This document shows, in pieces, positions 1,668 through 21,900 of a stretch of 33,462 bases of DNA. The DNA is from Caulobacter sp. S45 (GTDB taxonomy: Bacteria; Pseudomonadota; Alphaproteobacteria; Caulobacterales; Caulobacteraceae), in assembly GCF_903642205.1 (NCBI RefSeq), contig NZ_CAHJWH010000017.1, positions 1-33,462 of the forward strand, given 5' to 3'. How positions within the stretch are numbered: the first letter of the stretch is position 1; each line of letters begins with the position of its first letter. Below the pieces are notes generated by a model, which saw nothing but the letters and a program-made list of their open reading frames with translations, was not told the origin of the DNA and searched no databases. The translations under genes and the position numbers were made by a program.

Positions 1668-2501
1668 ATGTCGATGAACAGCATCAACACCAACACCGGC
1701 GCGATGATCGCGCTGCAGTCGCTGAACATGACCAACGCCTCGCTGGACATGGCGCAGAACGAGGTGTCCACCGGGCTGAAGGTCGCCGGCGCCAAGGACG
1801 ACGGGGCCATCTGGAACATCGCCCAGAGCCAGCGGTCCCAGATCTCGTCTCTGGGTGCGGTGACCGACTCGCTGAACCGCGCCTCCTCGGTTCTGGACGT
1901 GGCGGTGTCGGCCGGCCAGACCATCTCGGACCTGCTGAACCAGATGAAGGCCAAGACGCTGGAGGCGTCGGACACCTCACTCTCGACGTCGGACCGCGCG
2001 GCGCTGAACTCCGACTTCCAGTCGCTGATCACCCAGATCAAGAACGCCGTCAGCAATGCCAGCTTCGACGGCGCCAACATGATCGAGAGCGGCGGCACCA
2101 CGCTCTACGCCCTGTCAGGCCCCAGCGGGACCAACAAGCTGACCCTCGCCGCCCAGTCGCTGGCGCTCGGCGGCGCCAACCTGACGGTGGCCGCCACCGC
2201 CAGCTTCACAACCGCCACCCAGGCGTCCACCCTGCTGACCACCATCAACAGTTCCATCACCAACGTGAACCTGGCCGTGTCCAAGCTCGGCACCGAGGCC
2301 AATCAGGTGACCGAGAGCCTGACCTTCGTGTCCAACCTGAGCGACAGCCTGACGACTGGCGTGGGCAACCTGGTGGATGCCGACGTGGCTGCCGAAAGCG
2401 CGACGCTGCAGGCCCTGCAGACCAAGCAGCAGCTCGGCGTCCAGGCCCTCTCGATCGCCAACGCCTCCTCCTCCAACCTGCTCAGCCTGTTCCGCGGCTG
2501 A
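1668..2501 (+). CDS. Flagellin (FljK/FljL type)
   Basis: This 277-residue protein has the two conserved flagellin ends and a very short variable middle, as in Caulobacter flagellins of about 273 residues. The N-terminal D0/D1 part (residues 1-140) starts SMNSINTNTGAMIALQSLN and includes the STGLKVAGAKDDGA segment. The C-terminal part includes VDADVAAESATLQALQTKQ and ends in ANASSSNLLSLFRG. It is exported by the flagellar type III apparatus, so no signal peptide is expected or seen. GAAGAGGA lies 8-15 bases before the ATG and supports the start. The gene stands alone: no flaF, flbT or other flagellar gene is adjacent. A sigma-54-like promoter lies upstream. Which flagellin paralogue it is cannot be decided from this window. 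Confidence 0.93.
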   Translation: MSMNSINTNTGAMIALQSLNMTNASLDMAQNEVSTGLKVAGAKDDGAIWNIAQSQRSQISSLGAVTDSLNRASSVLDVAVSAGQTISDLLNQMKAKTLEASDTSLSTSDRAALNSDFQSLITQIKNAVSNASFDGANMIESGGTTLYALSGPSGTNKLTLAAQSLALGGANLTVAATASFTTATQASTLLTTINSSITNVNLAVSKLGTEANQVTESLTFVSNLSDSLTTGVGNLVDADVAAESATLQALQTKQQLGVQALSIANASSSNLLSLFRG

Positions 2502-4602: not shown

Positions 4603-5832
4603 ATGCCGCTGTCCAAGATCAAGGTCGCCAACCCCGTCGTGGACCTAGACGGCGACGAGATGACCCGCATCATCTGGAAGATGATCAAGGACAAGCTGAT
4701 CTTCCCCTATCTCGACCTCGATCTCGACTATTACGACCTCGGCATAGAGCATCGTGACGCCACCGACGACAAGGTGACCGTCAAGGCGGCCGAAGCGATC
4801 CTGAAGCACGGCGCGGGCGTGAAGTGCGCCACCATCACTCCGGACGAAGCAAGGGTGAAGGAGTTCGGCCTGAAGAAGATGTGGAAGTCGCCGAACGGCA
4901 CCATCCGCAACATCCTGGGCGGGGTGATCTTCCGCGAGCCGATCATCTGCAAGAACGTGCCGCGCCTGGTGCCCGGCTGGACCCAGCCGATCATCGTCGG
5001 CCGCCACGCCTTCGGCGACCAATACAAGGCCACCGACTTTAAGGTTCCAGGTCCGGGCAAGCTGACCATCACCTTCTTCGGTGACAGTGGCGAGAAGATC
5101 GAGCACGAGGTCTACCAGTTCCCGGGCTCGGGCGTTGCGTTGGCCATGTACAACCTGGACAGCTCGATCCGAGACTTCGCCCACGCAAGCTTCGCCTATG
5201 GCCTGCAGCGCAGGTATCCGGTGTATCTGTCCACAAAGAACACCATCCTGAAGGCCTATGACGGCCGCTTCAAGGACATATTCCAGGAGATCTACGAGGC
5301 CGAGTACGCCGACCAGTTCAAGGCGCTCGGCATCCACTACGAACACCGGCTGATCGACGACATGGTGGCCAGCGCGCTGAAGTGGTCCGGCGGTTACGTC
5401 TGGGCGTGCAAGAACTACGACGGCGACGTGCAGTCCGACATCGTGGCCCAGGGCTACGGTTCGCTCGGCCTGATGACCAGCGTGCTGCTCACCCCCGACG
5501 GCAGGACGGTGGAGGCGGAAGCCGCGCACGGCACTGTCACCCGCCACTTCCGCCAGCACCAGCGCGGCGAGAGCACCTCCACCAACTCGATCGCCTCGAT
5601 CTTCGCCTGGACCAAGGGGCTGGAGCAGCGGGCCAAGCTCGACGGCAACACCGAATTGACCCACTTCGCCGGGACGCTGGAGAAGGTCACCGTCGACACC
5701 GTGGAAGCCGGGTCCATGACCAAGGACCTCGCCCTGCTGGTCGGCGAGAACCAGGGCTGGCTGACCACGGAAGGGTACTTGGACAAGGTTTCCGAGAACT
5801 TGGAAGCCGCCATGGGCAAGCCAGGAGATTGA
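4603..5832 (+). CDS. icd: Isocitrate dehydrogenase, NADP-dependent, homodimeric type
   Basis: This 409-residue protein is the eukaryote-like homodimeric form common in alphaproteobacteria. It oxidatively decarboxylates isocitrate to 2-oxoglutarate in the TCA cycle. It begins [20 protein letters not shown]. Substrate-binding segments are [12 protein letters not shown] (about residues 96-107) and [25 protein letters not shown] carries metal-binding aspartates. [15 protein letters not shown] marks the coenzyme site, where the Arg-His pair is typical of NADP preference. Length and motifs are intact. The upstream gap of 106 bases is shared with the divergent methyltransferase gene. Its product, 2-oxoglutarate, is also the co-substrate of two oxygenases encoded nearby, which may be chance. 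Confidence 0.96.
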
Positions 5833-5923: not shown

Positions 5924-7774
5924 TCACGCTTGAGGATCCGCCGGCGCGCGAGGTGACGGCGTCAGGTCGAAGGCTAAGGTCAGTCGATGCCGGTCGCTCG
6001 AGAAGGGCCGCGTCCCGTGCCATAGATAGGCGGGAAACAGTGCAAGCAGCCCCCGTTCAGGTTTGATGAAGTGGTCCGGTGCGAGACCAGGGCGGGTGGG
6101 TATGCCGGGTTCGCCGAACTGCAGCCAGCCGGCGTGCTCATCTCCGCCGGTTCCCGGTAGGGCGATATAGCAGGCTGAAGAGATCCAGCCTTCCGGATGG
6201 ATATGGCTGCGATGGAAGCCGCCGGCGGGCAGCCGCACGGACCAGGCGCCGTCAAAACCGTAGCGGCCACGATTGCGGCTGGACATCGGGTCGGCGCCTC
6301 CCGAGCTTTGGGCGAGGAAGCGCAGGATCGGTCCCTTGGCCGCGTCGAAGAAGGCCTTGATCACGGGCTCTGCAGACGCGTTCAGGTGCGAAATCTGGCT
6401 GCCATGTCGCACGGACTGGCCGAGCGGGTGAGTCCGGAAGGCGTGCCGCGCCTCGAGCGTGGCCTCCAGGTCGTCCAGATATCGGTCCAGGCTGGCCCAG
6501 CCGGCCGGGGTTTCGAGCGCGTCGACCGAGGTCAATCGGTCATAGTCTGTCCAGTCATAGTAGCGCCCGTCGCTCAGCAATCGCCAGCAGGTCAGGAGAT
6601 AGGCGATCAGCGCCTGGTCATGCGGTTTGATCCGCAGCAGGCGTTCGGCCTGCGCCGCTGCGGCCTTGGCGTCACCCACGCCGAGCCACGCTTCACAGAG
6701 GGCCAAGGCGACGTTCGGATCGCGAGGCGCGCGTCCTGCGGTCGCCTCCACGTGCGCCAGCGCCGCCTCGGGGCAGCCGAGGAGCGCGGCCAGGCGTGCG
6801 GCGGCCACGCTCAACTGGACGATCTCAGGTGCGTTCTGCGCCGGACGCCTGAGAAGATCGTAGGCAGCCTGAACCTCGCCGGCCGAGCTCAGCAGGTCTG
6901 CTTTCAGGATCAGCAGGTCGGCTTGGACGGCCGGAGAGGCAAGGGTGCGATCGAGCGCCACCGTCGCGGCCCCGATATCGCCTGTCCGCATCCATAGCAG
7001 TTGGGCGCTGTCGCGATGCGCCTCCAGATAGTGCGGTCGGCGGCGAAGCGCCTGTGCGAACGCAGCCTCTGCAGCCTCAAAGCTGTTCTGGTTCATGAGG
7101 GATCGCCCAAGAACAAGCCAAGTCTCCGGCGCATCAAGGCCTTTGGCTTGCGCCCTGAGCGCCGCATCTTCTGCTTCGGAAAATCGCCCGATATCGGCCA
7201 GGGTGCTGGCGACGTTGTGCTCGGCGAGCCCGCTGGAAGGGTGGAGCCGCACGGCGCGTTGATAGATACCGAGCGCCTCATCCCATCTTCTTGCGCCCTT
7301 CAGCGCCCGGGCATGGATCGCCAGCAGGGCATGACTGGCGTTTGGAGACGCCACGGCGGCGGCAGTCGCTTCGATGGCGGCTTCCACGCGCCCCAAGCGC
7401 AAGAACAGCTCGGCCAGACCAATGGCGGCGGCCTCATGGCTCATGTCGAGCTCCAGGGCTCGTGTGAAGGCGGTCTCCGCACCTGCGTCCTCGCCCCGCG
7501 CCGCCAGGGTTTCAGCCAGGGCTGCGTGGTAGCCGGCCTGGGGATCTGCCCTAACAGCAGCGACCAAGGCGGCTTCAGCTCCGGCCGCATCGCCCGCGGC
7601 CCTTCTGGCGAGGCCGAGCAGATGCTGGCCTTCCGCCCAGTCCACGTCTCCCGCCAGAAGCTGCTCGGCGACGCGGCGACCTTCCTGCGCCTGCCTGCCT
7701 GCCAGCAGCATGCGTACACGCTGCAACGCGGCGGAGGCTGCAGCGGACCGGCTGCTCTCCGTCAGAGACGTCAT
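5924..7774 (-). CDS. TPR protein with C-terminal 2OG-Fe(II) oxygenase domain
   Basis: This protein has 616 residues from the ATG at 7774; a GTG at 7795 would add seven. Residues 15-420 are a long array of about ten TPR-like helical pairs, for example EAAEAAFAQALRRRPHYLEA. Residues 430-616 resemble the putative 2OG-Fe(II) oxygenase family found C-terminal to TPRs. They contain HRSHIHPEGWISSACYIALP (about 520-539), the likely proximal metal-binding histidines, and FPAYLWHGTRPF followed by DRHRLTLAFDL, holding the distal His and the 2OG-binding Arg. Such enzymes hydroxylate amino-acid side chains or small molecules; the substrate is unknown and the TPRs could recruit it. No signal peptide is seen, so it is probably cytoplasmic. 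It diverges from the first sulfotransferase gene across about 100 bases. Confidence 0.8.
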   Translation of the reverse strand: MTSLTESSRSAAASAALQRVRMLLAGRQAQEGRRVAEQLLAGDVDWAEGQHLLGLARRAAGDAAGAEAALVAAVRADPQAGYHAALAETLAARGEDAGAETAFTRALELDMSHEAAAIGLAELFLRLGRVEAAIEATAAAVASPNASHALLAIHARALKGARRWDEALGIYQRAVRLHPSSGLAEHNVASTLADIGRFSEAEDAALRAQAKGLDAPETWLVLGRSLMNQNSFEAAEAAFAQALRRRPHYLEAHRDSAQLLWMRTGDIGAATVALDRTLASPAVQADLLILKADLLSSAGEVQAAYDLLRRPAQNAPEIVQLSVAAARLAALLGCPEAALAHVEATAGRAPRDPNVALALCEAWLGVGDAKAAAAQAERLLRIKPHDQALIAYLLTCWRLLSDGRYYDWTDYDRLTSVDALETPAGWASLDRYLDDLEATLEARHAFRTHPLGQSVRHGSQISHLNASAEPVIKAFFDAAKGPILRFLAQSSGGADPMSSRNRGRYGFDGAWSVRLPAGGFHRSHIHPEGWISSACYIALPGTGGDEHAGWLQFGEPGIPTRPGLAPDHFIKPERGLLALFPAYLWHGTRPFSSDRHRLTLAFDLTPSPRAPADPQA

Positions 7775-7877
7775 GGGACCTCGTTCGACGAGCACCTTCA
7801 GCCTATGCTAGTCAGCGCCGGCCCGCTAGGCGAAGGGTCCGCTCGCCATCACTGGGCGGCTCCCCGCAGGAGACACC
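7775..7877. promoter_or_regulatory. Divergent promoter region between oxygenase and sulfotransferase genes
   Basis: The 103 bases between the two divergent starts must contain promoters for both directions if neither is read through from elsewhere. I see no convincing -35/-10 pair. The only clear signal is AGGAGA just before the 7878 ATG, a Shine-Dalgarno for the sulfotransferase. A shared control region would tie expression of the oxygenase and the sulfotransferases together. Confidence 0.35.
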
Positions 7878-9506
7878 ATGCCCTCCGACACGACCGAGAG
7901 ACCCAGCTCCGTCCTCGGCATCCAGGCCGCGGCGGCTCGCGGAGACATGGAGAACGCCTTCGCCATGATCGACGGAGCGCTCGCGGCGGGTGAGATGGAC
8001 CCGCTCCTCTACAAGCTGCGGGCTGTGCGATCGGAACGACGCGGGGAGTTCGCTGCCGCGGTCGAGGACTTCGAGCAGGCGCTTGCGCTGACGCCATGGG
8101 ACCCGGCCGTGCTGAACGCGCTGGGGCTCTGCGAAGCCCGGCTCGGTCGGCGGCCACGGGCGCTGCAGCATCTAGGCGAGGCCTTGCGTCTCCAACCCGA
8201 CTTCGCCGCAGCCTATGTAAATCGCGCCTGGGTGCTCGAGGGGTTGGGGGAATTGGAGGCTGCTTGCGCGGACTACCAGCAGGCAGTCTCGTTTGACGAG
8301 CACCAGCCGTTCGCCTGGGCCGCCCTGGCCATGCTGGCTGCGCGACAGGGGGATTGGCAGGCGGCCCGCAGCGGTGCGGCGCGAGCGCACGCGGACGGCA
8401 AGGACGTTCCCACCGCTATCATCGCGCTTGCCCTGGCGGATGCGGGGGAGGACCGGCCGGCGGAGGGTTGCGCGCGCTTGGAAGCTCTGCTCCTGACACC
8501 GCATCTGCAGCAGGACGAGCGGGCGCTTGCACAGGGCGTCCTTGCGGACCTTCTTGACCGTCTGGGTGACACCGCGGCGGCGTTTCGGCTGTATGTCAGC
8601 TGCAACGCCGATCTGGAGGCCGCGAACCCGGAGGCTGTGGCCCACTGGCGAGTTCGCGGCGCCCGCAGCGTGGTGGCACGCCTCCTGGACACACCCGCGG
8701 AGGACTTCCGCAGCGATGGCGCCGGGAGCCGCACGCCCGATCCCCGCGCGCCCGAGACGCACGTGTTCCTAATCGGTTTTCCGCGCTCGGGAACCACTCT
8801 GCTCGGACAGGTGCTCGCAGGCCATCCCGAGGTTTCCACCCTGGACGAGCGGGAGACCCTGGCCGACGCTGCGCAAGTCTTCCTCCAGGACGGCGGCGGG
8901 CTGCAACGCCTTCACGATCTCGATCCGGATACGGCCGACACCTTCCGCCGGCTCTACTGGGACCGGGTCACCGCTGGAGGCGTAATGCCTGGGCGCAAGG
9001 TCTTCGTCGACAAGCTGCCCATGAACATCCTGGGTCTGCCGATCATCCACCGGCTCTTTCCGCAGGCGCTGATCCTGCACAGCGTGCGTGATCCTCGCGA
9101 TGTGGTGCTGAGCTGCTTTCGGCAGCGCTTCGCCCTTGGACCGAGCACGGTCGAGTTCCTGGAGTTGCACTCAACAGTGGGCTTCTACGCGGATGTCGTG
9201 TCGTTTTGCCTTCGCGCCCTGGAGACGTCGCCGCTGGGCTGCCTGCAGCAGCAGCATGAGGCGTTGGTCCTCGATTTCGAGGGTGAGACCAGACGCCTGT
9301 GCCACTTCATGGGTGTCGATTGGACGCCGATCATGCAGGGGTTCGCTTCGCAGGCGCAGGCGCGGTTCGTCGCCACACCCAGCAGCGCCGACATCTCCGG
9401 GGGCCTGTCCGACCGCTCGATAGGCCGCTGGCGGCGCTACCAGGCCGAGCTGGGCTCCGTGCTTCCCCGTCTCGATCCCTGGGTACGGCGGTTCGGCTAC
9501 CCTTGA
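7878..9506 (+). CDS. TPR-sulfotransferase, first of a tandem pair
   Basis: This 542-residue protein has TPRs over residues 8-235, e.g. GEFAAAVEDFEQALALTPWD, followed by a sulfotransferase domain. The 5'-phosphosulfate loop for PAPS is FLIGFPRSGTTLL (about residues 297-309). The 3'-phosphate segment is HSVRDPRDVVLSCF (about 400-413). An acidic residue in STLDERETL and the lysine in VFVDKLPMN sit where tyrosylprotein sulfotransferases have catalytic residues. The end, SDRSIGRWRRYQAEL, is typical of TPR-linked sulfotransferases. The family transfers sulfate from PAPS to a hydroxyl group; a protein tyrosine is one possibility but no acceptor can be read from sequence. AGGAGA sits 5 bases before the ATG. 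The TGA stop overlaps the start of the next gene. Confidence 0.88.
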   Translation: MPSDTTERPSSVLGIQAAAARGDMENAFAMIDGALAAGEMDPLLYKLRAVRSERRGEFAAAVEDFEQALALTPWDPAVLNALGLCEARLGRRPRALQHLGEALRLQPDFAAAYVNRAWVLEGLGELEAACADYQQAVSFDEHQPFAWAALAMLAARQGDWQAARSGAARAHADGKDVPTAIIALALADAGEDRPAEGCARLEALLLTPHLQQDERALAQGVLADLLDRLGDTAAAFRLYVSCNADLEAANPEAVAHWRVRGARSVVARLLDTPAEDFRSDGAGSRTPDPRAPETHVFLIGFPRSGTTLLGQVLAGHPEVSTLDERETLADAAQVFLQDGGGLQRLHDLDPDTADTFRRLYWDRVTAGGVMPGRKVFVDKLPMNILGLPIIHRLFPQALILHSVRDPRDVVLSCFRQRFALGPSTVEFLELHSTVGFYADVVSFCLRALETSPLGCLQQQHEALVLDFEGETRRLCHFMGVDWTPIMQGFASQAQARFVATPSSADISGGLSDRSIGRWRRYQAELGSVLPRLDPWVRRFGYP

Positions 9507-11098
9507 GGCCTGCGCTAAGCCAGGCGGCCGCACTGCTGGAGGCGGCTGATCGAACGTTCCGCAGCGGTGACTTGTCGGCGGCGCGCACCCTTGTGGCCAG
9601 GGCGACGTCAGCCGATCCGGAGCACCTGGACGCCTGGCTGCTCCGAGCGGACCTCGCGCGGACGGCCGGCGATGTCGACGAGCTGCATGAGGACCTCGGT
9701 TGGGCCGAAGGGCTCACGCGCGACGTGGCCCTGCGTTCGGTGCTCAGCCTCGACAGGGCCTGGGCTCTGTTCCGGGCCGGGCGGACGGGCCAGGCGCAGG
9801 ACCTCGCCCGGACCCTGACCAGCGTCAGCCGTGACCGGCTCGGCATCTGGACGGCGCTGCTGGACGCCGTGGGCCTGTCGGAGGAGGCGGACCGTGCAGC
9901 TCGCCAGTGGATCGGACAAAGCCCCTCCGACGCCAGCGCCTGGCTGAGCCTGGCCAACATCAACGTGTGGCTCGGGCGACCGAAGGTGGTGCTCGAAGCC
10001 TGCGGACAGGCTCTCGCCGCCGGGCAGGCGTCGGCTTCCGCGTACCTGACCTTGGCGAGCAGCAAGCGCTGGACGCGGGCGGACGATGACGAGTTGGGCC
10101 GAATGCAGCGCGCCCTCGGCCAGGCCCGGAACGCTGTCGACCAGGCTCATCTCGGTTACGCCTTGTTCAAGGCTCACGACGACCTCGGAGACTCTGAAGC
10201 CGCTTGGTCAGCCTTGCAGAGGGGCGCCCGCGGGGCGCGAGCCGCCTTCCCGCCCCCTCTCGAGACCGCCGCACCCGCACCCGCCCTCGCCCGGCGCCCG
10301 GCCGTGGGCGGCCCGAGGCGATCGCCGATGCCCCGGACGATCTTCATCGTCGGCCTTCCTCGCTCCGGCACGACCCTGGTGGACCGCGTGCTGAGCGCCC
10401 ACAGCCGTGTGCGGAGCCTTGGTGAACTCAATACCTTTGGCCTGCTGGCGCGCACGGCAGGTGAGCAGGCCTTCCTCCCCTACGGAGACCTGGTGGCTAA
10501 GGCTCGCCTGCGCCGCAGCGGTTGGAGCGCGGTGGGCGCCGCTTATCGGACGGAAGTGGCGCAGATGGCCGGCGGCGCGACCGTCACCACCGACAAGAAC
10601 CTGCAGAACTGGCTGCTGGCGGACGGCATCGCACAGGCCTTGCCCGAGGCGCTCTTTGTCCACGTCCGTCGCGACCCCATGGACTCCCTGTTCGGCGCGT
10701 ACAAGCAGCTTTTCGTGGGCGGCGAGTACCGCTGGTCATTCGACATGGCGGACTTGGCGGATCACTATGGGCGCTATGCTGTAGAGACGACGACTCTGGC
10801 AGAACGGCTCAACGATCGCTGGATCGAGCTGTCCTACGAGGAGCTCGTCCGTCAACCTCCGGTTATGATCGCACGGCTGCTCGCCGCCTGCGGCCTCGAG
10901 TTCGAGACGGCCTGCCTTGACCCCTCCGCAGACCCGGCGGCGGTACGCACCCTCAGTGCGCAACAGGTGCGTGAGCCGATCAGCGATCGAAGCATCGGCG
11001 GCTGGCGCCGGTATGCCGACCAGCTGGAACCGCTGCGCGTCCGCCTGGAGGCCTGCGACCTGCTCGGGGACCACTCCGGATCGGCAGGCGCCTCGTAG
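9503..11098 (+). CDS. TPR-sulfotransferase, second of a tandem pair
   Basis: Protein-like sequence in this frame begins just at the upstream stop, so I place the start at TTG 9503-9505, overlapping the preceding TGA (TTGA). This gives 531 residues. Extending the frame back to 9299 adds only an Arg-rich shadow of the upstream gene. Residues 5-230 are TPR-like. The sulfotransferase domain has FIVGLPRSGTTLVDRVLSAH (about 281-300), the acidic SLGELNTF, DKNLQNW, and VHVRRDPMDSLFGAYKQLF (about 385-403), ending ISDRSIGGWRRYADQLEPL. It is a diverged paralogue of the upstream gene; both keep the PAPS-binding motifs but differ around the acceptor side, suggesting different acceptors. Its stop lies two bases from the stop of the convergent hydroxylase gene. 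Confidence 0.83.
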   Translation: MRPALSQAAALLEAADRTFRSGDLSAARTLVARATSADPEHLDAWLLRADLARTAGDVDELHEDLGWAEGLTRDVALRSVLSLDRAWALFRAGRTGQAQDLARTLTSVSRDRLGIWTALLDAVGLSEEADRAARQWIGQSPSDASAWLSLANINVWLGRPKVVLEACGQALAAGQASASAYLTLASSKRWTRADDDELGRMQRALGQARNAVDQAHLGYALFKAHDDLGDSEAAWSALQRGARGARAAFPPPLETAAPAPALARRPAVGGPRRSPMPRTIFIVGLPRSGTTLVDRVLSAHSRVRSLGELNTFGLLARTAGEQAFLPYGDLVAKARLRRSGWSAVGAAYRTEVAQMAGGATVTTDKNLQNWLLADGIAQALPEALFVHVRRDPMDSLFGAYKQLFVGGEYRWSFDMADLADHYGRYAVETTTLAERLNDRWIELSYEELVRQPPVMIARLLAACGLEFETACLDPSADPAAVRTLSAQQVREPISDRSIGGWRRYADQLEPLRVRLEACDLLGDHSGSAGAS

Positions 11099-11100
11099 GG

Positions 11101-12285
11101 TCAGAGCGAGGCCGGCGGCGTTTCCATGAACAGGTCCATGCCGGTCATCAGTTCGGCGATCTGCTCGCGCTCGTCCTCGGAGAGTTCCGGCCGCCAGATG
11201 TCGCAGATCATCACGATGCGCACCTGATCGCCGTCGTTCCACGCCTCATGTTCGATCGTGTCATCGAAGACCCAGGCCTTGCCCTCGCGCCAGGGACGCG
11301 TCTCGTTGCCGACGCGAAAGCCGCAGTCGCCGGGAACCACCAGCGGCAGGTGCAGCACCACGCGGGTGTTGGCGACGCCCGTGTGCGGCGGGATGCGCGT
11401 GCGCGGGCGGAGGACCGAGAACATGGCCGCGGGCGAGCGCTCCTGGACGTGCGGCTGGGGAAGCCGGTCGAGGGCGGCCATGGTGCGCGGGCATGCGGCC
11501 GTGTGCTCGGCCACTGGCTCGCCGTAGAGATAGAGGTGGATCGCGGACCAGTCCGGCGAACGGTTCAGCGCCGCCCATTGGTCGAGCGGGACTGTGTCCG
11601 GGTAGTCGACATAGGGCACGACGTTACGGCTCGTCGCCAGGAGCTCCAGGGCCTCGGCCCGGATGGACGCCGTCTCCGCCTCCAGGGCGGGAAGCCAGGG
11701 GAACAGCTCGTTGGGAAGAAAGTCGTAGACCGGCAAGTCCGGATAGAAGAAGTGCGTCGGCTCCTGGCGGTAGTTCTTGCGCAGGCCAAGGGCCAAGTCG
11801 AGGAAGTGGTCTATGCGGCCAGCCTGCGCCGGCGCTCTGGACGCGGCGCGCCGATAAAGCCGCTGGCGCAGGAATTCCCGTTGCTCTTCAAGGTGGAGGC
11901 GATGGATGTCGCGGCCGTGCTTCAGAGCCCGTCGGGTGGGTTCATCGAGCGCCGCATCACCAGGCGCCTGGGTAAGAGCGACGCCGTAGGCGCGCCCCGC
12001 CTCGCGCGTCCGACCCAGCCGCTCCAGAACCGAGGCCTTCATCAGCAGCGCCATGAACATTCGCGGATCGAGGGTCAAAGCCCCCTCCAGCGTACGAAGG
12101 GCGCCGCTCAGGTCTCCCAGCGCCCGGTGCGCTGCGGCGAGGTTCAGCCGGATCGCCGGATCTGCAGGGTCGAGACCGACTGCATGCCGAAGCAGCTGGA
12201 GCGCCTCGGCCGGCGCCCTTGCAGCCAGGGCGCGGGTGGCCATGCGGTTGAGCTGCTGTGGGTCGTCTACCGGGGATGACTGCAC
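11101..12285 (-). CDS. TPR protein with aspartyl/asparaginyl beta-hydroxylase domain
   Basis: This protein has 394 residues from GTG 12285; ATG 12243 is an alternative that cuts into the first TPR helix, so the GTG is preferred. Residues 8-115 are three TPRs. The C-terminal half is an Asp/Asn beta-hydroxylase domain very like that of mammalian AspH: IPPHTGVANTRVVLHLPL holds the first iron-binding His and the 2OG-binding Arg, GNETRPWREGKAWVFDD follows, and IEHEAWNDGDQVRIV holds the second His and Arg. AspH-type enzymes use only two protein ligands for iron and hydroxylate Asp or Asn, classically in disulfide-bonded loops. The gene follows the receptor gene on the same strand, but an intrinsic terminator stands between them. 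No signal peptide is visible. Confidence 0.88.
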   Translation of the reverse strand: MQSSPVDDPQQLNRMATRALAARAPAEALQLLRHAVGLDPADPAIRLNLAAAHRALGDLSGALRTLEGALTLDPRMFMALLMKASVLERLGRTREAGRAYGVALTQAPGDAALDEPTRRALKHGRDIHRLHLEEQREFLRQRLYRRAASRAPAQAGRIDHFLDLALGLRKNYRQEPTHFFYPDLPVYDFLPNELFPWLPALEAETASIRAEALELLATSRNVVPYVDYPDTVPLDQWAALNRSPDWSAIHLYLYGEPVAEHTAACPRTMAALDRLPQPHVQERSPAAMFSVLRPRTRIPPHTGVANTRVVLHLPLVVPGDCGFRVGNETRPWREGKAWVFDDTIEHEAWNDGDQVRIVMICDIWRPELSEDEREQIAELMTGMDLFMETPPASL

Positions 12286-12297
12286 TGCACAGCTCGT

Positions 12298-12330
12298 AAA
12301 AACAGAACGGCGGCCCGAGGAGGCCGCCGT
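12298..12330 (-). terminator. Intrinsic terminator of the TonB-dependent receptor gene
   Basis: Read on the minus strand, ACGGCGGCC and GGCCGCCGT form a perfect 9-bp stem (12330-12322 with 12315-12307) around a 6-nt loop, followed at once by TCTGTTTTT. This is a textbook factor-independent terminator 25 bases after the receptor stop. It ends only 12 bases before the GTG of the hydroxylase gene. Confidence 0.85.
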
Positions 12331-12354
12331 CCGCTATAGCTCAGATCGGGCCGC

Positions 12355-15300
12355 TTAGAAATCGGCCACCAAGTTCATGAAGATGTAACGGCCGACCGCA
12401 TCGTACACCCCAGGATAGGTGTTGCCGTTGTAGAAGGAGTTGTTGCCCCCCGTCGAAGAGCCGACCAGCGGCGGCAGCGTATCGAGCACGTTGTTGCAGC
12501 CGACCGTGAGCCGGTAATGGTCGGTGATCTTCCAATCCACGGTTGCATCCCAGTAGCTCTGCTCCGAGATGTGGGAGTCGAACGGGAAGGCCGAAGTGGC
12601 GTTGTCGACGTAGGACTTGGTCACGTCGGAAGACACCGCACCGTTGTAGCGCCACTGGCTGGAGAGGGAGATGCCGTAGAAGGGCGTCTGCCAAGTTGCC
12701 CGGAACTTGTGGCGATACTTCGGGGTAGGATTGCCGCAGACTGCGCCGTACAGGCCGTCGCAGTCGTAGGGGACGGCGTGTGGGATGCTCTGATACTTGA
12801 ACTCGCTCGTGTAGGTGCCGACGTAGTTGAAGCTGATCGGCCCGAAGTTGGGAAGGTTGTAGTCCGCCCAGACAAAGCGGTAGTCGCCCGTGAAGTCGAT
12901 GCCGGAGGTGCGCACCGAACCGGTGTTCAGGTTGGTATCCTGAACGTAGTCATTGGTGTTGAGGAACAAGTTGCCGTTGTTCGGGTCCCGGTGGACGAGG
13001 TTGCAGAACTGGTTGCTGTTGAGGCAGTCGTTAAGGATGGTCTGGCCGCCAATGCCGCCGATCTCGCCGGTCACGCGGATGTTGAAGTAGTCGGCGCTGA
13101 AGCTGAAGCGATGCAGCGGCCCGGTCTTGGGAGCCACCACGATGCCGCCGCTGACGGTGTCAGCCTGCTCGGGCGCCAGGTCCGGGTTGCCGCCCGTCAG
13201 GCCATTGTACTGGTTGGCCGTGCTCGCAGGCACACGTCCATACTGGTTGGCCTTCACTCCGCTCTGCTCACACTGGGCCAGCGACGCTGTGGGCGTGGCG
13301 CCGGCGCAAGGGTCGTTGGTGAAATCGCCAGTCGATTCGTGCTGGTCGGTGAACAGCTCGATCACATTGGGCGCCCGGACGGCGCGGTTGAAGCCGCCGC
13401 GGACCGTCAGGCCGGTGATCGGCGTGTACTCGCCATTCATCTTATAGGTGTTGGTGATGCCGGCTGTGCTGTAGGTGGAGAAGCGATAGCCGCCGTTGAA
13501 AGACAGCGCCTTCACGAACGGCTTGTCCTGGACGATCGGGATTTCGATTTCGCCGAACAGTTCATAGACGTCGAAGGATCCCGAGGTGTCCGGCTGCGGA
13601 CCGGCGCCGCCCGAAAGGTCCCCGGTCTGAAGCTCCAGGTCGTTCTGGATCGACAGGCCTTCGCGCCGATACTCGGCGCCCAGCGAGACGTTCACCCCGT
13701 CGGTCGCCAGCGGCGACCTGACACCGTAAACTCCGAGAGACCCGGTCAGGTTCATCTGGATATCCTGCTCGGTGGTCGTGCCCTGCTGGTAGCCGGGGAC
13801 CTGCAGGTAGTTCAGAGCCGCCTGGGTCACGGCGCCCGGCGTGAAGATGTTGTAGGGCACGCACGCCGTGTCGGTCCCGCTGAGCACGGAGGCGCAAGTG
13901 GGTTGGCCGGTCGCCGGATTGGTCACGACGTTCAAGGCGTTGCCGATGCGCGCGGTAGAGAAGTAGTTGGTGTTGCCGGTCGACAACTGGGTCTGACCGT
14001 ACTGGCCAGAGACGTCGTAGCTGAACGCGCTGTTCAGGTCGCCCTTGGCGCCGATCACGATCCGGAAGTCGTCGTGGCGGATGGAGGAGACGCGGCCGCC
14101 GCCTTCCTGGTTACGCCGCAGCACCGCGATCGAGGCGCTCTGGGCGGGGGTCAGGCCTGCCGCGGTGCAGAGCGTTGCGACCTGGGCGGCGGAAAGCAGC
14201 GGGTCGGCGCAGGGGATCGACACCGTGTTCCCGAATATCCCGCCTGGCGCGATCTGGGCCGTCGTATTGTCGTCCATGAACATGGCGGACGAATAGACGT
14301 CGATCTTGGGATCGACCTGGTAGTGGGCGAAGGCTCCGAACGTGTAACGCTGATCCGGACGCTGATAGTAGTTGTAGGGTCCGTAGTTGAAGTCCTTGAT
14401 GTTTTGGCTGAGAGAGCCGCCCGCGCCGACCTGATAGGCATAGGGCAGACTGGCGCCGTAGAGGTCGTTGCTGAGCAGGACGGCGGGATTCGTTGTTTCG
14501 GATCCCGCGCACTTCGCCAAGGTCGCCGTCTCCTTCAGCGTACAGGCGCTGTAGTCGCGGGAGCTCTGCAGGATGGGATCTTGGTGGCGATATTCGGCAT
14601 AGGCCGTCACGTTGCCACGCCCGTCCGGATCGTTGGCGCCCAGCAGCAGGGTTATGTCTTCCTGACCGCCGTCCACAACGTTGCCGGTCGGGACCGGGAA
14701 GCCGGCGGTCCGGTTCAGGCCGTCCACGACCTTGCTTTGGTTGCTGTGCTGGTCGAAGGCGCCGGTGGCGTTCAGCTCGACGCCCTGAAAGTCCTTCCTC
14801 ATGATGAAGTTGACGACGCCGCCCACGGCATCGGAGCCGTACACCGCAGAGGCGCCGCCCGTCAGCACGTCGACACGATCGATGAGGGCGGCCGGGATGA
14901 AGTTGAGGTCGGCCACGGGATCGGTGGCGTCACCGGGCTGCAGGCGCTTGCCGTCGATCAGCACCAGGGTGCGCTTGGCCTCGAGGCCGCGCAGGTCGAC
15001 TTCCGCGGTGCCGGTCGCCCCGTTGGAGATGGAGCTGCCCTGGCCCGAGAAGGCCTGCGGCAGGTTGTTGATCAGGTCCTCGACCCGGGTGGCGCCCTCC
15101 AGCCGGAACTCCTGGCTGTTCACCACCGTGATCGGGCTCGAGCTCGTCAGGTTCGGTGAGGCGACGCGCGAACCGGTGACCACAACCTCCGTCACCGATG
15201 CAGAGGCGGCCTCGGAGGTCGGGGTCACGGGGAGCGCCGCGCCTGTGGCGCCGGAGACGGCCTGAGTGCAGTTGGCGTCCGTCGAGCCTGGCGAGCAATT

Positions 15301-15426
15301 CGTGGCAGGGTTCGGCGCCGTCTGCACCGCACCTTGTGCAGCCGCATGGCCGACGCCGAGCGATGCAAACGCACCGGCGATCATCGTCGACGCAAGCAGA
15401 CTGCCACGCATGGACATTGTCTTCAC
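12355..15426 (-). CDS. TonB-dependent outer-membrane receptor
   Basis: This protein has 1023 residues from GTG 15426, chosen because AAGGGG (15433-15438) lies 6 bases upstream; TTG 15441, ATG 15432 and ATG 15417 are alternatives. A signal peptide ends near HAAAQ (about residue 31). A TonB box-like TEVVVTGSRV follows, then a plug domain with SSPITVVNSQEF, VDLRGLEAKRTLVLIDGKR, DVLTGGASAVYGSDAVGGVV and NFIMRKDFQG. The remainder is a 22-strand barrel in outline, ending YIFMNLVADF with the expected terminal Phe. These receptors import siderophores, cobalamin, glycans or peptides using TonB-ExbBD; the ligand is unknown. About seven closely spaced Cys pairs lie in likely loops. It is flanked by a TPR-hydroxylase gene and the giant repeat-protein gene, all on the minus strand. 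Confidence 0.93.
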   Translation of the reverse strand: MKTMSMRGSLLASTMIAGAFASLGVGHAAAQGAVQTAPNPATNCSPGSTDANCTQAVSGATGAALPVTPTSEAASASVTEVVVTGSRVASPNLTSSSPITVVNSQEFRLEGATRVEDLINNLPQAFSGQGSSISNGATGTAEVDLRGLEAKRTLVLIDGKRLQPGDATDPVADLNFIPAALIDRVDVLTGGASAVYGSDAVGGVVNFIMRKDFQGVELNATGAFDQHSNQSKVVDGLNRTAGFPVPTGNVVDGGQEDITLLLGANDPDGRGNVTAYAEYRHQDPILQSSRDYSACTLKETATLAKCAGSETTNPAVLLSNDLYGASLPYAYQVGAGGSLSQNIKDFNYGPYNYYQRPDQRYTFGAFAHYQVDPKIDVYSSAMFMDDNTTAQIAPGGIFGNTVSIPCADPLLSAAQVATLCTAAGLTPAQSASIAVLRRNQEGGGRVSSIRHDDFRIVIGAKGDLNSAFSYDVSGQYGQTQLSTGNTNYFSTARIGNALNVVTNPATGQPTCASVLSGTDTACVPYNIFTPGAVTQAALNYLQVPGYQQGTTTEQDIQMNLTGSLGVYGVRSPLATDGVNVSLGAEYRREGLSIQNDLELQTGDLSGGAGPQPDTSGSFDVYELFGEIEIPIVQDKPFVKALSFNGGYRFSTYSTAGITNTYKMNGEYTPITGLTVRGGFNRAVRAPNVIELFTDQHESTGDFTNDPCAGATPTASLAQCEQSGVKANQYGRVPASTANQYNGLTGGNPDLAPEQADTVSGGIVVAPKTGPLHRFSFSADYFNIRVTGEIGGIGGQTILNDCLNSNQFCNLVHRDPNNGNLFLNTNDYVQDTNLNTGSVRTSGIDFTGDYRFVWADYNLPNFGPISFNYVGTYTSEFKYQSIPHAVPYDCDGLYGAVCGNPTPKYRHKFRATWQTPFYGISLSSQWRYNGAVSSDVTKSYVDNATSAFPFDSHISEQSYWDATVDWKITDHYRLTVGCNNVLDTLPPLVGSSTGGNNSFYNGNTYPGVYDAVGRYIFMNLVADF

Positions 15427-15656
15427 TGTCATCCCCTTCAAGGAGCACGGCGACCGCCCGCTCCTCCTGTTGAACCGATGCGCCGTGAGGCACCCCCTTA
15501 GGATTGGCTACAGTGAGCGGTCAGCGGAGGAATACGTCAACTGCTGCGCCTCATTTCGGCGCGGGTTCGGCCACAGTGTCATCCTTTGGCCACACCGCGC
15601 GACCCGGTGGCCTTTTTAAGGGCGCCGTGTCTCCACTTCGGTGCATCACGCTCGAA
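15427..15656. promoter_or_regulatory. Upstream region of the receptor gene
   Basis: This non-coding stretch precedes the receptor gene (minus strand). It holds the AAGGGG Shine-Dalgarno at 15433-15438 and, on the minus strand, a TTGACG hexamer at 15540-15535 that could be a -35 element. I cannot place a confident -10. No Fur box or extended palindrome was recognised by eye, so the inducer of the receptor is unclear. Confidence 0.3.
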
Positions 15657-15956: not shown

Positions 15957-18900
15957 TCAGAAGTGCCTCGTTGGAGCGTTGGCGAGCATGGCTCCCTCCA
16001 GCGAGGCCATTGCGGCTGCAGTTGATGCAGTGGCGCCGATCGACGGTGTGGCGGCGCTGCTCTGGAAACCTGCCATCGACTGGACGAGCGCTGCGTTGGT
16101 GTTGAGGGCGGCGTGCGGCGTGATGTCAGTCCCGCCCTGCCCGTCCGATGCAACCAAGAACATGGACGCCGCATTCCCCGAGAGGTTGAAGTGCAGGGTC
16201 TTGGCGCCGTCGACCAGGGTGAGCAGGCTTCCCGCGAGGGTCGCTGTCGCGCCCGAGGTGTAGGCGACAGCGCGCAGGTCTAGGGTCTCCGCCGACCCTG
16301 AGAAGTTCTGGATTGTGTTGGCGAAGATCCCCTTGTTGGCCGGGGTCGCCGCCGCGTCGATCTGCAGCGTCTCTCCAAGTCCGACGCCGTTGTAGGTAGC
16401 ACCCTGGAAGTAGACGGCGCCGGCGCCGAGACCGCCGCGGGCTGCGAGTTCCAGCGTACCGTCCACCAGGGACCCCAAGCCCGTGAAGCCCGACGCGGCG
16501 GCGGAAACCACCAGGACGCCGCCTTGACCTTCGCTAAGCACGCCGTCGCCCGACAGCGTTCCCGCCACCGTGTCGCCGGCCTCCTCCACCGTGCCGTTGT
16601 CCACCAGGGTGGCTCCCGCCTGGGCGTCCAGGATGTAGGCCAGGCCGCCGGCGGTGACCGTCACCGAGCCGCCCGACTGGACGGTGGTCTCCTGCGCCTG
16701 GTCGATGGCGCCACTGAGCAGCCTGACGCCGCTCACGAGCGTGGTCGCGGTGGCGGTCCCGACGGTCAGCGACGCGCCGTTGGTCACGGTGGAGCTCTTC
16801 AGGACGAGCGTCACCCCGCTCCCCACGGTCACGCCCGACTGCGTCGCGCCGTTGTCCAGATAGTCGATGCCGCTGGCCACGGTCACGCCCGTCGCCGACC
16901 CGCCCGAGAGCACGTTCAGATAGCCGTCCACCGCGCCGGCCCCGGACAGCACACCGCCTGAGGACACCGTGACGTAGCTTGCGGACGCGCCCGAGGCGAG
17001 ATCCAGCACGCCAGCCGACTGGACCGTGGCGTTGTCGATCTGAAGGAGCGCCCCGGCCTCCAGCGTCACACCGTCGAAGGTGGTGGCCCCCGTTCCTCCG
17101 GCGCCGGACAGCGTGACCGACTGCCCGCTGGAGATGACCAGGGTCGTCTCCAGCGTGCCGCCGCTGGAGACCGCCAGAGCGACCGTCTTGGCGCCCTGGT
17201 ACAGATATTCCAGCCCGCCGGACAGCACGGTCCCGCCGCTCGCCGTTGCGCCGCTGAAGACGTATTGCCGGCCGCCGTTGGACACAGCGTCGTCCACGGC
17301 CGAGCCATAAACGCTTTCCGACGCCCCGCTGTCGATGGCGGTTCCGCTTTCGCTGGCGCCCACCTCGATGGTCTCGCCGCCACCCGAACCGAGGGTCAGG
17401 CCGCTGGTGAGGCCCCGGTTGTCCAGGTAGCCGTTCAGCGTGACTCCATCGATCGTGCCGGCATTGTAGGAGGAGGAATAGCCGGAGTTCGTGAGCAGGC
17501 CCGCGCCCGAGACCAGGCCGTAATTGTAGACCGAGCTGGTGGCGCCGCCCGCCTCGATCACCAGGGTCGCGCCGCTTGCGACGGTCAGGCCGTCATAGTC
17601 GATGAGGCCGCCGCTCAAGACGGTGACGCCGTCGAAGCTCGTGGTGGCCGTGACCGGACCGTCCGACAGCACCCCGCTCTGCACCGTCCCATAATTGGCG
17701 AAATGGACCTGGCCACCGCTCGACACCACCGAGCCCGACGCGGCGCCGTAATAGCTGAGCGACAAAACGCCGCCGGCCAGTACGGTGGTGGCGCTCGCCG
17801 TGCCCTGGACATCCTGCTCGCCGCCGTCGTAGACGGTCGCGCCGCTGGCGACGCCGCCGTATCCCACCGTCTCCTGCCCGCCGGCGTGGATCAGGACGCC
17901 GTCGTCGTCACCGTAGACGCTGGCGGAACCTGCACCGCCATCGCCGAGCACGGTGGCGCTGGTCACGCCGCCGTACTCCACGGCCAGGGTCGAGCCTCCG
18001 CCGACCACGCTTCCGCTGGCGTAGCCGGCGGACTCCACCTCGGCCGATCCGCTCAGCACCGTCACGCCGCCGGCGGCGCCACCCGACTCCACCAGCAAGG
18101 TGGCGCTGCTGGCCACCGTGACTCCGCTGACAACGCCGAAGTCGTCGACCAGCACCGCCTCATATCCGTTGCCGATCACCTCTCCCGGCCCGGCGAGATA
18201 GCCGCCCGAAGACACGATCACGCCACCGGTCACCGCGCCGGAGGTCAGCGACACCAGGCCGCCGCTGAGCACCGTTGTGCTCGCGACCTCGAGATGGCCG
18301 CCGGCCTTGACGGTGACCCCCTCCAGGGTCGTCTGGCCGGCGAACGACGAAGCCGGCACGACGAGGCTCTGGCCGCTGGAGACCACAGGCGCGAGGTACA
18401 GGTAGCCGCCGCTGGACACGGTCGTGCCGACGGCGGTTCCGCCAAGCAGATCGAGTTCCGCGCCGGAGAGAATGACCGATCCGCTGTCGACTCCGCCGCT
18501 GTAGATGTCGAGGAAGCCGGAGACGGTTGCACTCCGCAGCATGCCTCCCGACGAAACGACGACAATGCCCTCGCGATCGACGTTGATGTTATCGGCGAGA
18601 CCGCCAGATTCGATCTGCAGATATCCGAAGGAACCGCTCAAAGGGCCGGCATAGACGGCGGGAGCGGCCCCGCCCTTGCGCTGAACCGCGGCGAGGGTTG
18701 TGCCTGAACCGGGAGTGCCGATGTCGACGCCGCTGACCATGCCGAAGTCGGTGACTTCGGCGATGAGCGCGCCGGCCCCGGAGACGACGCCGCCCGAGGA
18801 TATGGTCAGGCCTGCTGCGGCGCCCTTCGATGTGACCGACAGGACTCCGCCGCTGGCGATGGTATAGTCCTCATAATCCACCGATCCGCCGCTCAGCACC

Positions 18901-21900
18901 TCTATGCCGCTGCCGACGGATTGATTGGCGGAGAACTGCCCGCTGTCGACCAGCACCGTGTTCGCCTTCACCGTGCCGCTGGCGAGATCCAGGCGGGCGC
19001 CCCTCGACACCACCGTCCCTGTCGCCACGGCGCCGCTGGCGATGAACTCGAAGGCGCCGGCGAGAAGGTGGGCTGAGCTGGCGACGCCGCCGCTGTAGAT
19101 GTACTGCTCTGCGCCGCTGGAGAGGACGGCGCCGTTCGCCGAGCCGCCGGAGAAAACCTCAAGAAAGGCGCCCGAACTGACCATGGCGCCGTTCGCCACG
19201 CCTCCAGACTTCACGTCCAGCTCGGAGAAGTAGCTGATGGTCGGAGCCGACAACACGCCGTAATCGACCGCATCGCCCAACAGTTCGACCGAGCCGACGA
19301 CGACGCCCCCCGCATCCAAGGTGAGGTCGTAGGCCGTGGCGCTGGAGGTGAAGGACAGCGTCGCGCCGCTCGCCACCGTGACGCTGTCGTAGGTTATGAC
19401 GCCGCCGCTCAGGACCGTCACGCCGCTTAGGGTGGTGGTGGCCGAAACCGCCCCTGCGGTGAGGGTGGCCCCGCTGCTGAGTGTGAAGCCCGAGGAGAAG
19501 ACCTCGAAATAGCCGCCGCTCGACACCGTCGCGGACACGGCGGTGGCGCCGGGATTGAGGTTCAACGCCCCGCCGGACAGCACCGTGGTGTTGCTGGTGA
19601 CGGCGGTGATCGCCACCGCCTCCAGCGCCCCGCTAGAGATGATGGTGCCGACGGCGACGCCTCCGCCGTCCACGGCCTGATAGCTTCCGGAGGACAGGGT
19701 CGTGCCCACGGCCGAGCCGTAGACGTTCTCCCGGTCGCCGACCGCCCCGCCGTAGCCCAGCACGGCGGCGCTGACGACGCCGCCGCGGCTGACGGTGATG
19801 GCGTCGTAGTCGCCCGCGACGGTGACGCCGCTGACCACGCCGCCGCCGTCGTAGGTGATGATCTGGCCCGCGTTCAGGGTGATGTTGTCGGCGACCGCGC
19901 CGGCGATGACATACAGGAAGGCGTAGCCGGATGTGAGCAAGCCGGAGTTGGGGTCGCCGATACTGACGCCGCTGACGGTTCCGTAGTCGAAGATCGAGGA
20001 ACCGACGCCGCCGAGTTCGCCGGGCCCGTTCAGCACGCCGCCGGACTCGACCTGGACGAAGCCGGACACCACCGCGCCCGCCGCCAGTGTCAGCGTACCG
20101 CCGCTCGACACCTCCGCGCCCATGACGCGCAGCGCGCCGCCGGCCCTCACCGAGACGCCGCTCAGGGTCGTGGCCCCATCGGGCGCAGCCAGGCTGATGC
20201 TCTGGCCGGAGGACACCACGGCGGTCAGGTCCACCGTGGCGCCGCTGGACACGGTGACGGCGGTCGCCATCGCACCCGAGGACAACACGTCAAGGCCGCC
20301 GGCGTAGACGATGCTGCCGCTGTCGACGCCACCGGCGCTGACAATCTGTGTTCCGCCGCTGGAGATCAGCGAGCCGTTGGCGTTGCCACCGGACCAGACT
20401 TCGAGCGTCGCGCCGCTGGAGATCCTGGTCCGGCTTTCAGCGCCGCCTGAGGCAACCAAGACCTCGCCTGCCACCAGCAGGACGCCGCTTGTCAGCCCGC
20501 CGGACTGAACGAGGAGTTCGCCCGTGTCGCCGGCCGAGTTCCCGACCTGGAGCGTATCGGCCTTGCCCATGACGGCGAGCTGGCCTTCGAGCAGGACGCC
20601 TGAGACCAGGCCGGCGTCCGCACTGTCCCCAGCCAGCACGCCGACGCCCGATACCGTTCCTCCTGCCGCAACAACGATGCTGTCTCCAACTCCGCCGGGC
20701 CCAAGCGAAAGGACTCCTCCGCTGAGGACCGAGAGGTCGGCGTAGTCGACCACGGCATCTCCAAAGAGCTTCACGCCGCTGGACGTGACTGCGGCGCCGA
20801 CCCGCCCAGCCACTACGGTCGTCCCCGCTGCAACCGTTCGGCCATCGAACTCGACCGCGCCGCCGCTGTAGACCAGAGAGCCACTGGCGATACCGCCGGA
20901 CGCCACTCGCATCAGACCGCCCGCGGAGACCCGCGTAACGCTGGCCACACCCCCGCTCTCGACAACGACCTCAGCTCCGGACTGCACCAGCGTAGCGCTG
21001 GCCGATCCGCTGGACGACACGATCAGAAGGCCATCCGCGACGGTCACCGCGTGGGCGATCCCGCCCGACGCGACATCGAGCTCGCCCGCGCCGCCGAAAT
21101 CGGTGGCCACGCCTGCGCCGAGCGTCACAGCGCTCACCACGCCGGCATCCAGGCTGACGTCGGAGAAGCCGCCGCCGAGCACGCCCGGCCCGCTCAGATA
21201 GCCGCCGGCCTGCACGGTCACGCCGCTGGCCGTCGCGCCTGCGGCTAGCCTGAGGGTTCCCCCGCTTTGAACGGTCGCCGAGGGAAGCTCCAGCCCGCCG
21301 CCGGACAACACTCTCACGCCGTCCAGGGTGGTGGTCGCGGCCGCAAGGGGAGAGCCGGACAGGGTGAAGCTCGTCCCCGACGAAATGATCGCGTCGAGCA
21401 CGGCCAAGCCGCCGCTTGAGACGGTCACCACGGCGCTTGCGTCGGCGTCCAGGATTTCGCCGCCGCTCGACACGATTACGCTGCTGGCGGTCGCGCCGGA
21501 GTTCAGGATTTCCAGGCCGCCAGACTGCACGATCGTGCGGCCCGCAAAGCCGCCGCTCGACACGAGCTGGACGCCGCCGTTCGACACGGTCGCGGAGAGA
21601 TCTACGCCGCCGGACTCGACAATGTCCATGGCGCCGCTCGACACGGTCGTCAGCATCGCCGAACCGTAGACCTCGTCGAAGGCGCCAGGCCCCCCGGCTT
21701 CGCCCAGAACGGTGCGGCTCGCCACCGCGCCGGCCTGGACGAACAGCTCCGACCCGTCTCCGTCGATCACCGCGCCGGTGGCGGAGGCGTTCACGTCGAG
21801 CTCCAGGTAGCCGTTCGCGACGGTGACCGCATCGGCCACGGCTCCATAGCGGACATAGAGGTTTCCGCCCTGTGAAGCGTCGCCGATGGTCACGCCGCTG

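Follow-up and report, generated by a model that had tools for sequence, protein, structure and literature searches.

What would four modifying enzymes do beside a TonB-dependent receptor (TBDR)? This question is raised by a 33,462-nucleotide stretch of Caulobacter sp. S45 DNA (hereafter the window), which is the whole contig C17 of a 3.26 Mb genome in 265 contigs. Five genes spanning positions 5924 to 15441 encode a 2-oxoglutarate (2OG)-Fe(II) oxygenase (OXY), two sulfotransferases (ST1 and ST2), an Asp/Asn beta-hydroxylase (ASP) and a TBDR (Table 1). A preliminary description of the window had pointed to four such enzymes next to a receptor, and the Pfam matches confirm each family. We propose that these genes form a cytoplasmic, receptor-linked module for the modification of a protein or peptide associated with the receptor, a reading to which we give a probability of about 0.5. 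The combination of tetratricopeptide repeat (TPR) arrays with TPST-like and AspH-like catalytic domains suggests a cytoplasmic polypeptide substrate, and the recurrent proximity to receptors of mostly one clade suggests that this polypeptide would be the receptor, or something passing through or with it.

OXY exhibits a PF13759 match (77 bits, residues 517-610) with TPRs on its N-terminal side; ST1 (PF13469, 101 bits) and ASP (PF05118, 157 bits) also contain TPRs. N-terminal TPRs had been described for all four enzymes; this stands for OXY, ST1 and ASP, whereas the match of ST2 is weak (PF13428, 34.6 bits; PF13432, 25.4 bits, below cut-off) next to its PF13469 domain (125 bits). The receptor exhibits both a Plug (76.7 bits) and a barrel (107.5 bits). 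OXY is divergent from the ST1-ST2 pair, and TBDR is followed by ASP on the same strand after 69 bases. The listed open reading frame of ST2 begins at 9299; a likelier start is the TTG at 9503, which overlaps the ST1 stop codon as TTGA. None of the four enzymes has a strongly hydrophobic N-terminus (maximum 19-residue hydropathy of 0.19-0.91 in the first 60 residues, a simple measure rather than a signal-peptide predictor), in agreement with the earlier view that they lack signal peptides; the corresponding value of the TBDR is 1.44. The four enzymes thus look cytoplasmic.

Table 1. Genes of the cluster and other genes of the window.
Gene	Product	Length (aa)	Positions	Strand	Remarks
OXY	TPR-fused PF13759 2OG-Fe(II) oxygenase	623	5924..7795	-	GTG start; ATG at codon 8 also possible
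ST1	TPR-fused PF13469 sulfotransferase, TPST-like	542	7878..9506	+	
ST2	Second PF13469 sulfotransferase, weak TPR match		9503..11098	+	Probable TTG start
ASP	TPR-fused PF05118 Asp/Asn beta-hydroxylase	394	11101..12285	-	GTG start
TBDR	TonB-dependent receptor	at most 1028	12355..15441	-	Length from TTG at 15441; in-frame ATGs a few codons inside
	Isocitrate dehydrogenase		4603..5832		Flanks the cluster; named by eye
	Protein of AIDA-type SGG repeats (PF16168)	2681	15957..24002	-	Flanks the cluster
	Flagellin (PF00669, PF00700)		1668..2501	+	

Among solved structures, seven of the eight sequence matches of the ST1 catalytic domain are protein-tyrosine sulfotransferases (TPSTs). In the ST1 model (pLDDT 89.2, pTM 0.85) this domain superimposes on TPST1 with a Z score of 20.3 (rmsd 2.9, 234 residues), and the whole set of TPST1, tick TPST and TPST2 gives Z scores of 19.7-20.3 (rmsd 2.8-3.1, 234-243 residues) at 19-21% identity. 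The match to an olefin-synthase sulfotransferase (4gox) is weaker (Z 16.7, rmsd 4.9, 224 residues). Alignments of 12 and 15 proteins show strict conservation of the ST1 residues R303, E324 and K379, which align with Arg, Glu and Lys residues of TPST that we take to be the catalytic ones. ST1 thus shares with TPST1 and TPST2 the PF13469 domain of TPST fold and the PRSGTT loop, harboring R303, that binds 3'-phosphoadenosine-5'-phosphosulfate (PAPS). It could work like a TPST, yet we do not class it as one, because it exhibits no strongly hydrophobic N-terminal stretch that would anchor it in a membrane or direct its export. TPSTs reside in the Golgi membrane and are not known to contain TPRs; in contrast, ST1 is apparently soluble, with a TPR array at its N-terminus.

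The OXY model (pLDDT 94.8, pTM 0.90) exhibits a long, OGT-like TPR superhelix followed by a domain resembling two structures of uncharacterised proteins, 3bvc (Z 17.8, rmsd 3.4, 178 residues) and 2rg4 (Z 17.4, rmsd 3.9, 181 residues). TPR matches dominate the fold search, and among the 50 matches listed these two alone cover the catalytic end. An alignment of 36 sequences exhibits no variation at H521, H524, H526, H586 and R597 (counted from the ATG at codon 8), presumably catalytic residues, as expected for a 2OG oxygenase. The TPR part of the ST1 model also matches OGT (Z about 19-19.5). Both enzymes resemble OGT in placing a TPR superhelix ahead of a catalytic domain, which in OGT modifies proteins, but their catalytic domains and reactions are different ones.

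The best solved relative of ASP is human AspH (E-value = 2.3e-29, residues 239-376), which has a related catalytic domain and the same order of TPRs and PF05118. The HTG...R and HE.W...R stretches of ASP align with the human sequence. Among 41 ASP homologues, the strict form of the first motif is found in 28 and that of the second in 27; the remaining ones differ (HEARN being an example), and in a few the second motif is absent. AspH acts in the endoplasmic reticulum on disulfide-bonded EGF-like domains. In contrast, no signal peptide is evident in ASP, and Pfam reveals no EGF-like family in any of the five cluster proteins. For both ST1 and ASP, the nearest relatives of solved structure have protein substrates, which agrees with the earlier remark that domains of these types can do so in other organisms.

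The preliminary description had proposed co-occurrence in related genomes as a check, and these families do occur together beyond chance in several orders and classes. In 41 Caulobacterales genomes, 7 of 26 ASP genes are located within 10 kb of a TPR-sulfotransferase (0.45 expected), as are 6 of 23 OXY genes (0.49 expected), and 5 of the 26 ASP genes are within 10 kb of OXY (0.13 expected); this is 12 to 38 times the expectation, which is a Poisson estimate from rounded genome sizes, uncorrected for kinship. In these counts OXY genes are open frames of at least 440 aa scoring less than 100 bits (short PF13759 matches and those of 100 bits or more were dropped), and sulfotransferase matches under about 200 bits and one fragment were dropped as well. 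Gene orders and strands around ASP are shuffled within the order: ST-ASP-TBDR-ST (L039), OXY-dioxygenase-ST-ASP-ST-TBDR (L040), OXY-ASP-ST-TBDR (L044), ASP-TBDR-ST-ST (L046) and TBDR-ASP-ST-TBDR-OXY (L049). There are also loci in which ASP has neither a TBDR nor the other enzymes (e.g. L042, L043, L050, L052 and L054). The genome of strain S45 itself has six TPR-sulfotransferase matches (one cut by a contig end) in four loci, all four with a TBDR. Its PF13469 matches number nine, and those on C16 (not of TPR length) and C3 have no labelled TBDR in the stretches examined.

TBDRs also co-occur with these enzymes. Scanning named genomes with the OXY alignment, we took the best 80 of at least 555 loci, which span Caulobacterales, Hyphomonas, Maricaulis, Sphingomonas, Sphingobium SYK-6, Rhodanobacter, Rubrivivax and others. 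Of the 80, 74 have a called OXY gene; within 10 kb of it there are a TBDR in 26, a sulfotransferase in 15, ASP in 15 and a YbiX-like dioxygenase in 4. In Phenylobacterium aquaticum KACC 18306 (L143), OXY is accompanied by two TBDRs, a sulfotransferase and ASP, and in Phenylobacterium sp. Root700 and Root1290 (L101 and L117) by a TBDR. Within 1 kb of OXY, 16 TBDR genes occur in 142 kb, or 112 per Mb (the six loci without a called OXY dropped, first receptor profile used). The counts for two whole genomes are 26 TBDR genes (3.26 Mb, about 8 per Mb) and 34 (3.7 Mb, about 9 per Mb), so that the density by OXY is about 12 times the background. That profile was trained on linked loci and is possibly biased; a generic search based on 27 further TBDRs raised the number of receptor genes by just four. 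With the generic search included, a TBDR is found within 3 kb of 26 of 36 sulfotransferase, 19 of 40 ASP and 22 of 80 OXY genes; these loci were reached via ASP, OXY or the sulfotransferases of the S45 genome, and the sulfotransferase figure is not a free sample. L048, being the same stretch as L071, was dropped here, from the receptor tree and from the distance correlation given below.

Across the phylum, 60 of 150 sampled genomes (nine candidates scored per genome) exhibit a TPR-sulfotransferase match. A TBDR lies beside the gene in 9 of 20 hand-picked regions outside Caulobacterales, among them TBDR-ST-OXY (L224) and ASP..ST..TBDR (L217); ten have none and one is too short.

The receptors of linked loci are mostly of one type. 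On a tree of 71 TBDRs (44 from linked loci and 27 others from two genomes; duplicates UL163, UL167 and UL169 dropped), the label "in a linked locus" requires 3 changes, against a mean of 21.7 after shuffling (0 of 500 as low); several branches of this tree are long and unsure, the label partly mirrors receptor recognition, and 4 of the 44 lack an enzyme within 3.5 kb. The linked receptors are also longer (1010 versus 816 residues) and richer in cysteine (mean 11.0 versus 3.4; 44 versus 27 sequences). Another TPR-sulfotransferase group adjoins other receptor types (L059, L206-L209). As a possible target site in the receptor we considered the conserved DPC...C and C...C stretches; they are also present in receptors with OXY alone beside them, and accordingly we propose no site.

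These features would fit the following scheme. As in AspH and OGT, the TPR arrays would bind a polypeptide that is unfolded or flexible and bring it to the catalytic domain. OXY and ASP would hydroxylate this polypeptide, and ST1 and ST2 would add sulfate from PAPS, which should be available because an adenosine 5'-phosphosulfate (APS) kinase gene is encoded elsewhere in the genome. Both modifications would precede export. The modified polypeptide would most likely be either the receptor while still nascent or a small partner that is exported; its modification may be required for the ligand binding or uptake of the receptor. In its most specific form, a cytoplasmic TPR-guided line of enzymes would hydroxylate and sulfate specific TBDRs or a co-exported peptide before the inner membrane, the receptors working only when modified, and would be a bacterial counterpart of TPST, AspH and OGT for outer-membrane proteins; this specific form we hold as tentative and, on the whole, doubtful. 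If it is true, protein sulfation and Asp/Asn hydroxylation would join the chemistry of bacterial outer-membrane proteins, and a reason would be given for the TPR-sulfotransferase families of the sampled phylum genomes. The recurrence of like gene sets by related receptors points to an unstudied chemical finishing of receptors or accompanying peptides.

A partnership between a TBDR and a cytoplasmic dioxygenase has been described in the same genus. According to the accessible text of PMC12004947, the Caulobacter crescentus receptor CciT strictly and specifically needs the cytoplasmic 2OG/Fe(II) dioxygenase CciO. Should this need be explained by modification, the type of locus studied here could reveal how. 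The likeness to CciT-CciO (and to Fiu-YbiX and PiuA-PiuC) lies in a TBDR encoded with a cytoplasmic 2OG dioxygenase, and dioxygenases of the YbiX/PiuC family themselves occur in some linked loci. They were identified by NCBIfam in L040, L071 and L180 (195, 182 and 200 bits versus a cut-off of 143 for NF003974, an Fe2+-dependent dioxygenase model; the YbiX model comes lower down in the profile search) and by profile in L068, L118 and L129; in L068, L071 and L180 a TBDR adjoins the dioxygenase. A difference is that no TPR-sulfotransferase or AspH-type partner is described in the accessible text of PMC12004947, where the word "sulfotransferase" occurs 0 times. The window contains no gene of the YbiX/PiuC/CciO family and thus no such receptor-dioxygenase pair, and the two YbiX-family genes above cut-off in the S45 genome lie outside the cluster. 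We regard the window system as a variant of the receptor-dioxygenase partnership, not as categorically new. Elsewhere in the same genome, a YbiX/CciO-family dioxygenase gene (G000:C39:16703-17380) is located about 1 kb from a TBDR match, and the two are likely a pair of the CciT-CciO type.

Several observations weigh against a receptor-linked module acting on a polypeptide. No TBDR is found within 3 kb of 58 of the 80 OXY and 21 of the 40 ASP genes (some stretches end early), and the half of the hand-picked regions outside Caulobacterales that lack a TBDR speaks against a tight, fixed system. OXY also occurs in another setting that lacks receptors, marked by a pseudouridine-synthase-like neighbour family (named by eye) in 28 of the 80 loci, mostly near OXY. 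Another receptor of the S45 genome (L198), a close relative of the window TBDR, is without these enzymes on its 16 kb contig. The correlation of sulfotransferase and TBDR distances is modest (0.32 for 24 pairs; 2 of 2000 permutations as high, uncorrected for species relatedness). The post-translational modification system of the preliminary description therefore survives in part: co-occurrence, cytoplasmic look, kinship to TPST and AspH and the APS kinase favor it, but the many OXY and ASP genes without a TBDR speak against a tight and fixed system. These genes, the ten TBDR-free regions and the multi-copy nature of TBDRs and TPR-sulfotransferases could even be taken to mean that the genes are mere neighbours, expanded families which meet by chance or share nothing but regulation. 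The excess in enzyme co-location and in TBDR density by OXY argues against this, and we consider it very improbable.

Other observations concern the nature of the substrate. According to the accessible text of PMC12004947, CciT is still produced without CciO, and the three models of its authors are synthesis of a transporter substrate, breakdown of an inhibitor and oxidation of a substrate; PiuC has been proposed to metabolise an imported siderophore-drug (PMC12004943, accessible text). In NCBIfam, ASP scores best against two lipid hydroxylase models, OlsC and LpxO, though far below the cut-off of either. Both points count against a polypeptide, and for enzymes acting on a small molecule, be it an imported compound, an envelope lipid or a siderophore-like ligand made by the cell itself; the compound would enter via the receptor, and the TPRs would do no more than scaffold the enzymes. 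Also in favor of a small molecule, some loci (L099, L101, L110, L128) have S9, M20 and M14 peptidases and an Opp/Nik-like ABC permease (below cut-offs) near OXY-linked receptors; the peptidases and the permease suggest that these receptors import peptides. The protein substrates of TPST and AspH, the relatives nearest to ST1 and ASP among solved structures, argue against a small molecule, and no siderophore synthesis genes were noticed in the listed linked loci, inspected by eye only. We judge this explanation unlikely, though it deserves serious attention.

The substrate may alternatively be a dedicated, small exported peptide resembling ribosomally synthesized and post-translationally modified peptides, re-imported or sensed via the receptor. 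A candidate is a family of small secreted proteins with a signal-like start and a Cys pair (C-x(14-15)-C-x(5)-W), present in L039, L053, L056, L073, L084, L085, L095, L098, L110 and L180 and in several loci adjoining ASP, a sulfotransferase or OXY; a TPR enzyme lies no farther than 10 kb from 5 of 45 copies or tandem groups (1.11 expected, p = 0.006). Moreover, the accessible part of a table in PMC10040529 numbers sulfotransferase and aspartyl beta-hydroxylase clusters next to lasso-peptide genes, genomic adjacency being read from the numbers. However, 40 of the 45 copies or groups are away from TPR enzymes even with a search profile partly built from linked copies, the window contains no member, and of 20 further copy regions L180 alone has a receptor and a TPR-sulfotransferase by profile. 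The early strength of this idea has faded to that of a weak rival, which we consider improbable. A lasso-peptide origin finds no support here: the lasso B2 family (PF13471) has 0 matches in the S45 genome, and its 9 matches in 7 of the 41 genomes are all farther than 10 kb from any listed enzyme gene. The Cys-pair family itself has 61 matches in 26 of the 41 genomes, often in tandem, and the seven members tested exhibit no convincing Pfam match.

As to the receptor-linked module preferred here, the literature matches listed contain no description of TPR-sulfotransferase or TPR-AspH loci beside TBDRs, most subscription papers being outside the search; within that scope, the earlier opinion that such a system is uncharacterised in bacteria holds. 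A further lead, TBDRs neighboured by tryptophan halogenase, SapC and cupin genes, yielded no paper in the literature searched.

Further enzymes occur in the linked loci. Small sulfotransferase-like genes lie by linked receptors (L099:14793-15635, L215:7638-8423 and L129:13972-14610); that of L129 alone matches Pfam (PF03567), the other two being named by eye. Between ASP and a sulfotransferase, a fusion of a Sel1-like region and a PF13640 2OG oxygenase, a further oxygenase type, is found at L073:7290-8240, L084:7097-8062 and L098:7137-8108 (Pfam run on the L073 one, with the Sel1 match below cut-off). The receptor-free setting of OXY occurs in Caulobacteraceae at L074, L107, L114, L133, L141 and other loci, and a family like an ATP synthase assembly chaperone (named by eye) is found in 14 of the 80 loci. 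One OXY locus (L146) is Caulobacteraceae-like in a record named Pseudanabaena biceps, a cyanobacterium, and is possibly a contaminating contig.

In the window, the giant AIDA-repeat protein adjoining the cluster is likely an adhesin, with no signal peptide evident by eye. It was considered as a partner of the cluster; no such gene was noticed by eye in the listed linked loci, no dedicated search being made. The flagellin gene is a lone one, amid genes that look by eye like housekeeping genes.

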